Below, piece after piece: positions 2,934-56,389 of a DNA stretch of 64,000 nucleotides; position 1 is the stretch's first letter, and each line of letters starts with the position of its first letter. This DNA comes from Haloplanus sp. XH21 (GTDB taxonomy: Archaea > Halobacteriota > Halobacteria > Halobacteriales > Haloferacaceae). The notes under the pieces were generated by a model that did no database searches, had not been told where the DNA came from, and was given only the letters and a program-made list of their open reading frames with translations. A program made the translations under genes and the position numbers. The stretch covers positions 2,170,001-2,234,000 of the forward strand of contig NZ_JALLPL010000001.1 in NCBI RefSeq assembly GCF_023276355.1, given 5' to 3'.

Positions 2934-3012
2934 TACTGTCGGCTGTGAGTCTTTCAACGATTGCGCCACCCCGGGGAGGTGAATATCTTGATCCAGTTAC
3001 AGCCGACAGTAT
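2933..3012. repeat. Palindromic element, family A, copy 1
   Basis: Perfect 14-base terminal inverted repeat: ATACTGTCGGCTGT at 2933-2946 and ACAGCCGACAGTAT at 2999-3012, with a partly palindromic middle (CACCCCGG..GAATATCTTGA). A homologous element lies at 33636-33711. The left end overlaps the TGA of meaB. No ORF inside. It could fold as a long hairpin and act as a terminator, or be a non-autonomous mobile element. Confidence 0.75.
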
Positions 3013-3063
3013 GAGCCGTCACCGGTCACCACCGTATAAGTCCACGGCGACCGATTCACGACT

Positions 3064-33598: not shown

Positions 33599-33635
33599 GG
33601 ATGCGAGGCAAATACTTTCCGGCAGCGACCGCCTC

Positions 33636-33711
33636 ATACCGCCGGCTGTAACTGTTTCGAGAGGTTCGTCACCCCGGTCGAATCTCTTGACTGCCGCACG
33701 GCCGACGGTAT
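33636..33711. repeat. Palindromic element, family A, copy 2
   Basis: ATACCGCCGGCTGT at 33636-33649 and ACGGCCGACGGTAT at 33698-33711, arms 14 bases with two mismatches. The centre CACCCCGG and GAATCTCTTGA matches copy 1 at 2933-3012. It runs directly into a family-B element at 33713. Confidence 0.7.
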
Positions 33712-33712
33712 C

Positions 33713-33794
33713 ATACGGATTACTGTGACTGTCTTTCGGTGCCGCCGATCCGTCTTGGCGACCCACCGGTACTGACGTACAAGGAACCGTCTCA
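33713..33794. repeat. Palindromic element, family B, copy 1
   Basis: Starts ATACGGATTACTGTGACTG and ends ACCGGTACTGACGTACAAGGAACCGTCTCA. Homologous along most of its length with 34066-34147. Its right end covers the TGA stop of the CDGSH gene (33792-33794). Confidence 0.7.
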
Positions 33795-34053: not shown

Positions 34054-34065
34054 CGGCGGGAGTCA

Positions 34066-34147
34066 GACGGATTATTGTAACTGTTTCCCGTGGTTCGCTG
34101 GATCGTCCCAGCGCATCACCGGTCCTGACGTGCAATAAACCGTATCA
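34066..34147. repeat. Palindromic element, family B, copy 2
   Basis: Left GACGGATTATTGTAACTGTTT, right TGACGTGCAATAAACCGTATCA; the arms pair over most of their length around a short centre (GCTGGATCGTCCCAGC). The right end covers the TGA of the zinc-protein gene at 34145. Confidence 0.75.
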
Positions 34148-44838: not shown

Positions 44839-45504
44839 TCAGGGGACGACGCATTTGAGCTCCGCGGGGAGATACTCGCCGACGCTGGCGAGCAGTCCCG
44901 GCGGATCGGTTCCCTCCGCGCAGATGACGCTCTGTTCGAGCAGGCCGAGGCGTTCGACGGTGACGATGTCGCGGGCGTGTCCCGCGCGGTTGATCGTCGC
45001 GCGCACCTCGCCCCGCGTGGCGCTGTTGACGTTCAGGCGGCCGTTGCCACGCGTCCACTCGAACAGGCGGTCGCGCTCGGCGTCAGCCAGTCGCGCCGGG
45101 TCGCCCGCCGTGAACTGCAGGGGGAGGTGCTGGACCAGGCCGAAGCGGTCGCGGATCTGCGACGGCGTCCCGGGGCCGAGGCCGAGTTCGTCGGCCGGGA
45201 TCCGGACCCGTTCGCCCGCGTCGAGGACGAACCCGTTTTCGTCCCACGATTCGAGCGTGCCGACGTAGGTCTCGCCGTCTTCGAAGCCGGTCCCGATCTC
45301 ACCCCACTCCTCACGGAGGAGGTTGCGCGCGACGACGGCGTCGTCGCCCGTGACGGTGACCGAGACGAAGTCGTCGTGGCGGACGCCGACCTCCCAGTCC
45401 ACGTCGAGACCGCCGATGTCGTTGTCGACGAGCGAGCGCATCCCGTCGAGCGCCCGGTCACGGGCGTCGCCCTCGACGTAACATTTGGTTGCGAGAACGA
45501 CCAT
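44839..45504 (-). CDS. DUF2110-family protein (TFE neighbour)
   Basis: 221 residues starting MVVLATKCYVEGDARD. Contains a THUMP/PINT-like mix I cannot resolve; GTLESWDENGFVLDAGERVRI looks like an OB or S1-like fold. The start ATG (45504-45502) shares its A with the stop of TFE. Context with tfe suggests a transcription or RNA role, but this is inference from conserved order. Confidence 0.82.
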   Translation of the reverse strand: MVVLATKCYVEGDARDRALDGMRSLVDNDIGGLDVDWEVGVRHDDFVSVTVTGDDAVVARNLLREEWGEIGTGFEDGETYVGTLESWDENGFVLDAGERVRIPADELGLGPGTPSQIRDRFGLVQHLPLQFTAGDPARLADAERDRLFEWTRGNGRLNVNSATRGEVRATINRAGHARDIVTVERLGLLEQSVICAEGTDPPGLLASVGEYLPAELKCVVP

Positions 45505-46025
45505 CAGGCCACGTCCACGTTGAGTTCGTCGCGGAGCTCCTCGATGCGTCGCTCCGTCGCCTCGATGAGGTCGTCGTTCTCCATCGGTTCGAGCGGGGCG
45601 CCAGTCTCCGGACACTGGAAGTCGAACTCCATCGCCTCGCTGAACTCGAAGCGGATGCCCGCCGGTTCCGAGAGATAGAACTCGTGTGTCCGCTCGTATT
45701 CGAGGCGCTCTTCGAGCGCGTCGAGTAGTCGGTACATCTCCTCCTCCAGGTTCTCCGGGATGTTCTCGTACTCGAACGTCCAGAGATAGGTGAGCCAGCC
45801 CGAATCCTCGTCGCGGACGCGGCGGTAACTGGCGAGGTCGTTCTCGTAGAGGATGAACAGGGCACGGCGTACGTCGTTCAGTTCGAGTTCGAGTTCCTCG
45901 GCGAGTTCCTCGTCCGTCACCTCCCCGTCCGGCGGCGCGGCAGCGACCGGCATCCCCGTCGGTCCGACGAGTTCGTGGAGGTACTTCTGGATCACCGGAT
46001 CGCTCAGCAGCTCCTCAAAAGCCAT
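45504..46025 (-). CDS. tfe: Transcription factor E alpha subunit (TFE), degenerate zinc ribbon
   Basis: 173 residues. N-terminal winged helix FEELLSDPVIQKYLHELVG, LAEELELELNDVRRALFILY, RDEDSGWLTYLWTFEYEN matches TFE/TFIIE-alpha. The C-terminal zinc ribbon normally has two C-x2-C pairs; here it reads FYLSEPAGIRFEF and FDFQCPETGAP, so three of the four Cys are replaced. TFE helps RNA polymerase open promoters. A TTTAAAC TATA element 25-30 bases upstream suggests a leaderless mRNA. Confidence 0.9.
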   Translation of the reverse strand: MAFEELLSDPVIQKYLHELVGPTGMPVAAAPPDGEVTDEELAEELELELNDVRRALFILYENDLASYRRVRDEDSGWLTYLWTFEYENIPENLEEEMYRLLDALEERLEYERTHEFYLSEPAGIRFEFSEAMEFDFQCPETGAPLEPMENDDLIEATERRIEELRDELNVDVA

Positions 46026-46084
46026 TGCGTCCAGTTCGGAGCGGCGGCGGTTTAAACGCCACGGTCAGCCAGTGGGCCTGTCCA

Positions 46085-46170
46085 CTCATAGGAATTAGCG
46101 GAAGTCGTCAGAGATTCTCGCCGGGCCGTCACGGCGAGAATCTCTGGACAGTTGCGATAATCCCTATCAG
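46085..46170. repeat. Palindromic element, family B, copy 3
   Basis: 39-base arms (46085-46123 and 46132-46170) with 8 mismatches, the inner 15 bases CAGAGATTCTCGCCG perfect, 8-base loop GGCCGTCA. Outer arm (right, reversed) GATAGGGATTATCGCAACTGTCC matches the family-B arm GACGGATTATTGTAACTGTTT. Its right end carries the TGA of the nfeD-type gene. Confidence 0.75.
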
Positions 46171-46736
46171 TTCCGCTCGGCCTCGCGCTCGCGCTCGGCC
46201 TCCTCGTCCTCCCGCCCTGCGGCGAGTTCGGCGTCGATGTCGTCCTCGATGTCGTCGAGTGGCGCGACCGTGAGGACGTTGCCACCGCCGGGGTCGACCA
46301 CGATGACCTCGGTGCCGACGGGGATGTCCCCGTCCATCGACCGAGCGGCGAAGTTCGGATCGAAGCCGCCGCGGTCGAGTTTCACCGTCCCCGACTGCGT
46401 CGTGACGCGCTCGGTGACACGTCCCGTCCGTCCGCGCAGCGACGACGAGTTGCTCGTCTGCCCGGCGCCGCTGTCGCCGTAGAGGTCGAACCGCCGGTAG
46501 CCCACCAGCGCGAGGCCGCCGAACGCGAGCACCAGCGCCGCCAGAACCAGCGGCCCGGCCCCCAGGACGAGGCCGACGATGCCCGCCCCGAGAAGCGCCA
46601 CGCCGAGAACGGCGAAATGGGCACCCGGCGCCATCGCCTCCGCGATGGAGAGGCCGATACCGGCAAGAACCAGGAGAAGCGGGAGCGTCTCCGGGCCGAG
46701 TTCAACCCCCGACTGGAGGACGGACATCCAGACCAT
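46167..46736 (-). CDS. NfeD-like membrane protein
   Basis: 189 residues. Four hydrophobic segments (LPLLLVLAGIGLSIAEAM, FAVLGVALLGAGIVGLVLGAG, VLAALVLAFGGLALVG), then the soluble NfeD OB-fold LRGRTGRVTERVTTQSGTV and VVDPGGGNVLTVAPL, and a charged acidic-basic tail. Usually pairs with a stomatin-like protein; none is adjacent. An ATG at 46727 is an alternative start. Confidence 0.85.
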   Translation of the reverse strand: MVWMSVLQSGVELGPETLPLLLVLAGIGLSIAEAMAPGAHFAVLGVALLGAGIVGLVLGAGPLVLAALVLAFGGLALVGYRRFDLYGDSGAGQTSNSSSLRGRTGRVTERVTTQSGTVKLDRGGFDPNFAARSMDGDIPVGTEVIVVDPGGGNVLTVAPLDDIEDDIDAELAAGREDEEAEREREAERN

Positions 46737-54449: not shown

Positions 54450-54471
54450 CGGGGCGTCTCACGGCGACAGC

Positions 54472-55121
54472 CGCTGTCGGTCGCGTGGGAACACGGTCGT
54501 TCCGCTTCGCTTCACTCCCTGCGTCCACGCTCCCGGGGCGCCTTCGTCCTACGGACTCAGTCGCTGTCGGTCGCGTGGGAACACGGTCGTTCCGCTTCGC
54601 TTCACTCCCTGCGTCCACGCTCCCGGGGCGCCTTCGTCCTACGGACTCAGTCGCTGTCGGTCGCGTGGGAACACGGTCGTTCCGCTTCGCTTCACTCCCT
54701 GCGTCCACGCTCCCGGGGCGCCTTCGTCCTACGGACTCAGTCGCTGTCGGTCGCGTGGGAACACGGTCGTTCCGCTTCGCTTCACTCCCTGCGTCCACGC
54801 TCCCGGGGCGCCTTCGTCCTACGGACTCAGTCGCTGTCGGTCGCGTGGGAACACGGTCGTTCCGCTTCGCTTCACTCCCTGCGTCCACGCTCCCGGGGCG
54901 CCTTCGTCCTACGGACTCAGTCGCTGTCGGTCGCGTGGGAACACGGTCGTTCCGCTTCGCTTCACTCCCTGCGTCCACGCTCCCGGGGCGCCTTCGTCCT
55001 ACGGACTCAGTCGCTGTCGGTCGCGTGGGAACACGGTCGTTCCGCTTCGCTTCACTCCCTGCGTCCACGCTCCCGGGTGCCTTCGTCCTACGGACTCAGT
55101 CGCTGTCGGTCGCGTGGGAAC
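54472..55121. repeat. 90-bp direct tandem repeat array overlapping the aspS 3' end
   Basis: The 21-base segment CGCTGTCGGTCGCGTGGGAAC occurs at 54472, 54562, 54652, 54742, 54832, 54922, 55012 and 55101, so 7 units of 90 bp (the last 89 bp because of one deleted base in the CCCGGG run). Units look identical apart from the ends. Read on the minus strand the 21-mer encodes the [10 protein letters not shown] tail of AspRS, and the TAG stop lies in the unit. All 90 bp, not just a short repeat, are conserved, so it is not a CRISPR. Confidence 0.95.
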
Positions 55122-56389
55122 AACACAGCCTCGCGGATATTGCCCAAGTCGAGCATCGTCATGACGAGACGCTCGACACCGTAGGCCCACCCGGCGTGGG
55201 GCGGCATCCCGTATTTGAACATCCGGGTGTAGTAGTCGAACTGCTCGGGGTCGAGCCCCTGCTGTTGGAACCCGGCTACGAGTTCGTCGTAGCGGTGTTC
55301 GCGCTGCCCGCCCGAGACGAGTTCCATCCGCGGATGCATCAGGTCGAAGCCCTTCGAGAGCTGCGGGTCGTCCTCGTAGTCCTGAATGTAGAACGGCTTG
55401 ATCTCCGAGGGCCAGTCGGTGATGAAGTAGTGGCCGCCCACGTCGTCGCCGAGCGCCTTCTCCGCCTCGGTCGGCAGGTCGTCGCCCCAGACGAGTTGCG
55501 TGTCGAGTTCGCCCGTGGCGTTGATGCGCTCGATGGCCTCCTCGTAGGTGAGGCGGGGGAACTCCTCCTCGGGCACGCCGAAGTCGTCGTAGCCGAGGAG
55601 TTCGAGTTCCTCTTGGCAGTTCTCGGCGACGCCCTCGTAGGCCGCGCGGAGCGTCCCTTCACAGACGTCCATCGCCTCGTGGTGGTCGACGAATGCCGAC
55701 TCGAAGTCGATCATCGTCGCCTCGTTGAGGTGCCGGGGCGTGTTGTGCTCCTCGGCGCGGAAGATGGGGCCGATTTCGAACACCCGCTCCAGACCGGAGC
55801 CGACCATCAGCTGTTTGAACAGCTGTGGCGACTGGTTCATGAAGGCCTCTTCGCCGAAGTAGGTGATCGGGAAGAGCTCCGTGCCGCCCTCCGTCCCCGT
55901 GGCGACGATTTTCGGCGTGTTGATCTCCGTCGACCCGACCGAGCGGAAGTAGTCCCGCACCGAGCGCAGGATTTCGCTCCGGATCTCGAAGATGGCCTTC
56001 ACCTCGGGCTTGCGGAGATCCAGCGTGCGGTTGTCGAGACGGGTGGGCAGTTCGGCGTCGACTTTCCCGGAGGGGTCGAGAGGGAGTTCGGGGTCGGCCT
56101 CCGCCAGCACGTCGACGGACTCGGGGACGAGTTCCAGCCCCGTCGGCGCGCGGGGTTCCTCTTCGACGGCGCCGGTGACGGCGACGACGCTCTCGCGGTG
56201 GACGCCGAGCCCCGTCTCCACGAGGTCGTCGTCCATCTCGTCTTTCTCGAATTTGACCTGCAGTTTGCCGGTCTTGTCCCGGAGGATCAGGAAGGCGATG
56301 CCGCCGAGGTCCCGGATTTCGTGGACCCAGCCGGCGACCGTAGCCGTTTCGCCGGCGGCGACGTCGGCCGCGTGAGTTCGGTTCTGCAT
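55088..56389 (-). CDS. aspS: Aspartyl-tRNA synthetase
   Basis: 433 residues, archaeal/eukaryotic-type AspRS. N-terminal OB anticodon domain [19 protein letters not shown], class II motif 2 ([16 protein letters not shown]) and motif 3 ([16 protein letters not shown]), ending in [10 protein letters not shown]. It may be non-discriminating; GatB further along the window supplies transamidation for Asn or Gln tRNA. The stop lies inside the first (rightmost) unit of the 90-bp array. Start MQNRTHAAD. Confidence 0.95.

Follow-up and report, generated by a model that had tools for sequence, protein, structure and literature searches.

The palindrome behind the nfeD-like gene of Haloplanus sp. XH21 is very probably (about 0.82) a copy of a non-autonomous mobile element of the MITE kind, approximately 80 bp in length. 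With MITEs it has in common that it is short, non-coding, bordered by terminal inverted repeats and flanked by a duplication of fixed length, and it is best regarded as a new MITE-like variant. An earlier note on this DNA had pointed to a long-stemmed palindrome at positions 46085-46170 of the window (the whole stretch of 64,000 nucleotides that was analysed). This repeat (46084-46171, 34/44 positions) is the top hairpin of a scan of the 64-kb window. Its 40-nt arms, 46084-46123 and 46132-46171, are 80% complementary and enclose an 8-nt loop, and the 15 innermost arm bases are all complementary, as the note had it. The element proper could be narrowed down to the interval between two TCA repeats (Table 1). 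Folding energies are 6.7 s.d. (RNA) and 5.7 s.d. (DNA) lower than those of shuffled sequences. The palindrome ends the gene that the note had called nfeD-type, and the element's right-hand TCA on the plus strand is the TGA stop of that gene. We term the gene "nfeD-like" because its match to the Pfam NfeD domain is weak (19.7 bits) and falls under the curated cut-off of 29.1. The next gene, named tfe in the note, was confirmed as TFIIE-alpha.

Table 1. Features of the nfeD-like locus and the other hairpin copies in the window (window coordinates).
Feature	Position	Strand	Remarks
Probable mobile hairpin element, subfamily B2, 78 bp	46089..46166	-	5'-TAGGGATTATCGCAACTGT...CGACTTCCGCTAATTCCTA-3' on minus strand; covariance-model match 60.4 bits, E 4.9e-16
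TCA, one copy of the 3-bp target duplication	46086..46088	.	
TCA on plus strand = TGA, second duplication copy and stop codon of nfeD-like gene	46167..46169	-	
Left subterminal box GCAACTGT	46148..46155	-	family consensus GTAACTGT
Right subterminal box CGACTTCC	46100..46107	-	family consensus TGACTTAC
Core hairpin	46109..46147	-	arms 46132-46147 / 46109-46123, 8-nt loop 46124-46131
nfeD-like gene	46167..46736	-	stop codon = target; NfeD domain below curated cut-off
Transcription factor E alpha (tfe), next gene	45504..46025	-	
Second copy, B1	33714..33791	+	TCA 33711-33713 / 33792-33794; right TCA = stop of CDGSH zinc-finger gene
Third copy, B1	34066..34144	+	TCA 34063-34065 / 34145-34147; right TCA = stop of DUF7385 gene
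Fourth copy, family A	33637..33710	+	TCA 33634-33636 / 33711-33713; right TCA common with adjoining B1 copy
Fifth copy, family A	2934..3011	-	TGA 2931-2933 / 3012-3014; left TGA = stop of 496-codon plus-strand reading frame

The window contains five such elements, all of them (5/5) with identical 3-bp flanks. One flank coincides with the stop codon of a gene in four of the five, and the fifth shares a flank with a neighbouring copy. The likeness of the outer arm to the copies at 33.7 and 34.1 kb, which the note had remarked on, is borne out by four window matches to GATTATTGTAACTGT (up to three mismatches; 0.07 expected), three of which are these copies. Two other repeats of the window are a tandem array unrelated to the hairpins (54468-55122; 90-bp unit, 7.3 copies, 99% matching) and a 157-nt direct repeat (879-1197) whose two copies are 83% alike and lie 162 nt apart from start to start. 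Genome-wide, the left-end motif GGATTATTGTAACTGT was found at 86 sites with at most two mismatches, compared with one for the reversed control. Both ends were read in 75 copies of this genome, and 11/86 sites with an unrecognisable right end were dropped.

The copies fall into four families that follow one plan: B1 (TACGG...), B2 (TAGGG..., with the nfeD-locus copy), A (TACTGTCGGC...) and C (TAGTAGC...). Between a TA at either end, an element consists of 8 or 9 family-specific bases, a GTAACTGT-like box, the palindromic core, a TGACTTAC-like box and a stretch nearly complementary to the outer bases of the left end. Elements measure 78-80 bp, and the length from box to box hardly departs from 58. 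The outer arms form terminal inverted repeats, identical at 7-13 of 13 positions in 29/30 copies and at 4/13 in one. Sites 357304 and 913538 of this genome hold hybrids whose left end is of type B and whose right end is of type A, and one of them is only ~40 bp long. The earlier proposal that the ends are kept and the core is replaced stands in part. The copies do share their ends and differ in the core, but the conserved parts are the terminal TA, the GTAACTGT and TGACTTAC boxes and the length of ~80 bp, while the 8 bases that separate box and terminus differ from family to family. Nor is the core freely swapped: outer stem and core vary yet remain paired, since compensatory changes keep the hairpin intact.

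The flanking sequences of the copies and their positions within one another bear on mobility. In this genome, 53/59 TNA pairs are identical, compared with 26.1 (s.d. 3.2, maximum 38) in 10,000 shuffles. Among 44 copies from other genera (a set that leaves out five loci of the own genus, four duplicates, L289, and L415 from the window's own genome), 34 have identical flanks, and 34/35 TNA pairs agree as against 17.0+-2.9 after shuffling. Three copies are nested in others at a TGA of the outer copy's right box region. When the inner element and one TGA are deleted from the nests at 2249829 and 2247468, what remains is an outer element of exactly 80 bp between matching flanks of its own; the third nest, at 108584, is arranged in the same way (TGA...TGA). 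Thus, because TNA flanks are identical beyond shuffling and copies are nested with duplication of TGA, the family is mobile. The suggestion that the termini are recognised by a transposase acting in trans is supported as far as movement is concerned, but none of the loci examined yielded a transposase bearing such ends. A family C copy within a family A copy (G000:C1:1075068, L168) is flanked by a 2-bp TA duplication and not by a 3-bp TNA, and this one nest raises the possibility that the length of the duplication is not the same in all families.

At the nfeD locus, the element is absent in 11/11 other species of the genus, each of which keeps one stop codon. The intergenic sequence of these congeners has diverged, so the comparison demonstrates absence and not a base-perfect empty site. 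A strain-level pair of filled and empty sites was not obtained from the two Haloarcula plasmids compared, since each carries a copy at one and the same stop codon. In these plasmids (L469, L468) it is a family A copy at the stop of a peptidase-like gene, and the hairpin copies diverge far more than their 98.8% identical downstream sequence. Copies at three further loci (L020, L271, L283) adjoin the same gene pair, prephenate dehydratase-like and small heat-shock-like (names assigned by eye), which suggests a reused or old site.

Copies are frequently positioned at the ends of genes. In 61/75 copies of this genome, and in 48/55 of those with identical flanks, the flank on one side is a stop codon that closes a reading frame of coding composition; frames counted as coding according to their open length and codon-position G+C, by which 10/10 window genes tried were recognised. 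The target consensus, GWC-TNA-GWC, is palindromic. Stops at the target are TGA in 44, TAA in 3 and TAG in 1 case, and the 52 stops of the window comprise 24 TGA, 20 TAG and 8 TAA. A null model weighted by the target motif over non-coding TNA words places 21% of copies at stops (bootstrap 5-39%), and a null confined to each copy's own gap (TSA words) predicts 10.9 for the 15/15 observed at stops in convergent gaps and 11.3 for the 18/21 in tandem gaps. Null fractions that depend on the gene caller are approximate, as it put a false minus-strand gene over the 2.9-kb copy. Since stops are favoured less strongly in the own-gap test, much of the preference is explained by target sequence, dense genes and the removal of harmful insertions. 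Much of it may thus reflect selection in a compact genome; a direct attraction of the element to stops is possible.

In other genera, 29/44 copies lie at coding stops, compared with 100/2081 (4.8%) of the other TGA/TCA words in 55 loci. The L289 copy, flanked by TCG and TCA, is also at a stop, and its inclusion gives 30/45. According to published annotation, copies are situated directly at the stops of tpiA (Natrinema) and a CPBP protease gene (Haloarcula), and at the stop of an FAD oxidoreductase gene the copy match overlaps the gene end by one base. The copy in Haloplanus HW8-1 is not at an annotated stop, and in the annotated Halomicrobium and Haloarcula plasmid pieces only 3/8 distinct copies abut one. 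An insertion at a stop codon would be tolerated: both TGA and TAA fit the TNA target, and the stop is restored by its own duplication, so the protein is unchanged. A copy that landed in this way would survive in a compact genome.

The position behind stops, found for 61/75 copies here and for copies in other genera too, would also be expected of an RNA element at the 3' end of transcripts, a terminator or mRNA stabiliser selected in its own right with mobility as a secondary trait. The strong fold and the compensatory changes would fit such a role as well. However, the copies are found in both orientations (32 with the gene next to the left end, 16 with the gene next to the right end), the pattern of a U-tract terminator is absent, no Rfam family corresponds to them, the nfeD locus lacks the element in all 11 congeners, and target duplications and nests speak of insertion, not descent. 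We therefore consider this explanation improbable, and mobile copies may instead have been put to later use as a 3'-end signal. The search for an intrinsic terminator (GC hairpin plus T run) covered positions 45900-46400 and found none (0). Among known RNA families, only two microRNA families matched the elements, and neither came near its cut-off (E 0.07 and 0.96).

The pairing of the hairpin is maintained across genera. Across 22 copies of equal length from different genera, pairing holds in 88.5% of cells, as opposed to 76.6% after shuffling and 23-45% when the arms are slid, and compensatory double changes occur in 20/32 pairs (79 cells vs 26.9). Both boxes were part of the search pattern, so that their invariance in this set proves nothing; the stems were not in the pattern. 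In this genome, 47 copies of B1 length contain 65 compensatory cells vs 34.7 in 300 shuffles (maximum 48). Covariation of the outer stem is expected if one transposase binds both ends, but covariation of the core is not. The latter suggests either that the hairpin itself is required or that one arm serves as template for the other; the paired core might be maintained by a constraint on the hairpin during transposition or by template-driven correction.

Such a requirement raises the question of whether the substrate is single-stranded DNA, folded into a hairpin and processed by a dedicated, unlinked enzyme similar to RAYT, and not double-stranded ends read by a DDE transposase. The core pairing that is kept despite sequence change, the nearly constant spacing of the boxes and the failure to find a linked transposase among the loci examined would agree with this idea. 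The 3-bp target duplications, however, imply a staggered double-strand cut of the target, and neither IS200/IS605 nor REP hairpin transposition is known to produce a target duplication. Moreover, palindromic cores can also be present in ordinary MITEs. Hairpin transposition of this type thus appears unlikely. Similarly doubtful is a more far-reaching interpretation, an order-wide hairpin family moved by a dedicated enzyme that is unlinked to any copy, reads the paired hairpin and two asymmetric boxes, inserts at stops beyond what sequence and compactness account for, and duplicates the stop.

The MITE-like family is widespread among haloarchaea. The B1 end was found in 10/12 genomes of the genus, this one included, and in 1/28 outside it. 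The two boxes at the right distance, searched for without other constraint, occur in 21/293 genomes of the order, with two control matches, and the copies that they reveal share plan, TNA flanks and length and have different cores. A covariance model built from 32 copies detected the family (E up to 0.001) in 55/145 haloarchaeal genomes and 26/50 genera, several genomes having at least 32 matches. Carriers include plasmids of Natrinema, Natronorubrum, Natrialba, Haloarcula hispanica, Halomicrobium and Haloplanus, and a full copy is present in a Haloferacaceae MAG, the sole haloarchaeal title among 70 stretches in a scan that excluded near relatives. Carriage by viruses was not observed: no element was found in 50,697 phage records, and among the matches listed, 0/80 loci on viral contigs showed the outer pairing (best 6/11). 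That the palindrome arose by chance, or is an inverted repeat specific to this gene and without relatives, was rejected as practically incompatible with 86 motif sites vs 1 for the control, 53/59 identical TNA flanks and a presence in 26/50 genera.

A transposase encoded elsewhere would bind both ends, probably at the boxes, cut at the terminal TA and insert the element at a TNA site whose two strands are cut 3 bp apart. As a lead, the 3-bp TNA duplication would by analogy direct attention to an enzyme of the IS1031-type IS5 group or the Harbinger type, groups that follow a 3-bp TNA/TWA duplication rule. Like the MITEs of the IS5 group (IS1031-type) or of PIF/Harbinger (Tourist), the present elements are short and non-coding and combine terminal inverted repeats with a 3-bp TNA-type duplication. 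They differ in that no parent transposon was found among the loci examined, that their common part is the subterminal boxes and not the outermost bases, and that they have a compensatory core and stop-codon sites. Of 30 DDE_Tnp_1 (PF01609) loci of the genus that were examined (of ~130 matches), none bore the element ends. In the genome G132, which has many near-identical copies, 20/20 seemingly single ends proved to be full ~80-bp copies, none of them a longer transposon. No recurring transposase was seen in the neighbourhoods of copies across genera, and the pairing of ends in G213, among the matches listed, led to no partner. At one locus (L481), an insertion-sequence-like end (GAGGGTGTCATAGAAC) starts at the precise point from which the final bases of a hairpin copy are missing.

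REP and REPIN sequences mobilised by RAYT resemble the present elements as imperfect hairpins with many extragenic copies, no linked transposase and a variable core. They are described, in the accessible part of the source, as 20-40 bp long with GTAG/CGTC tags (PMC3733652), which sets them apart from elements of 78-80 bp with TA ends. REPs are also not known to make a target duplication, unlike the present elements. Closer at hand are the small mobile repeats SMR-A and SMR-B of Haloquadratum walsbyi, which according to the accessible account are 80-110 bp long, have inverted ends unrelated to transposons, make no target duplication and are mobilised in an enigmatic manner (PMC3119063). As far as that account goes, both groups are non-coding, have prominent terminal inverted repeats and many copies and insert into other mobile elements. 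By description, the 3-bp TNA duplication distinguishes the present elements from SMRs, which are said to make none, and the preference for stop codons is a feature of the former that the accessible SMR account does not mention (PMC3119063). The covariance model had no match on the Haloquadratum plasmid PL47. In their accessible parts, a review of prokaryotic MITEs names few archaeal cases (PMC10969869) and an account from 2026 of a haloviral hairpin origin offers no link to the present elements (PMC13107129). No description of this hairpin family was recognised in the openly readable literature.

For the haloarchaea, one rule would account for many unexplained palindromes behind genes, and archaea would gain a counterpart to the REP or Tourist repeat families. 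The consensus, the duplication, the target motif and high-copy host genomes are now in hand for an enzyme hunt, and the puzzle of how haloarchaeal small mobile repeats move would be brought into a testable form. Insertion that re-creates the stop codon would be a neat route by which a mobile element spreads without harm in a compact genome.
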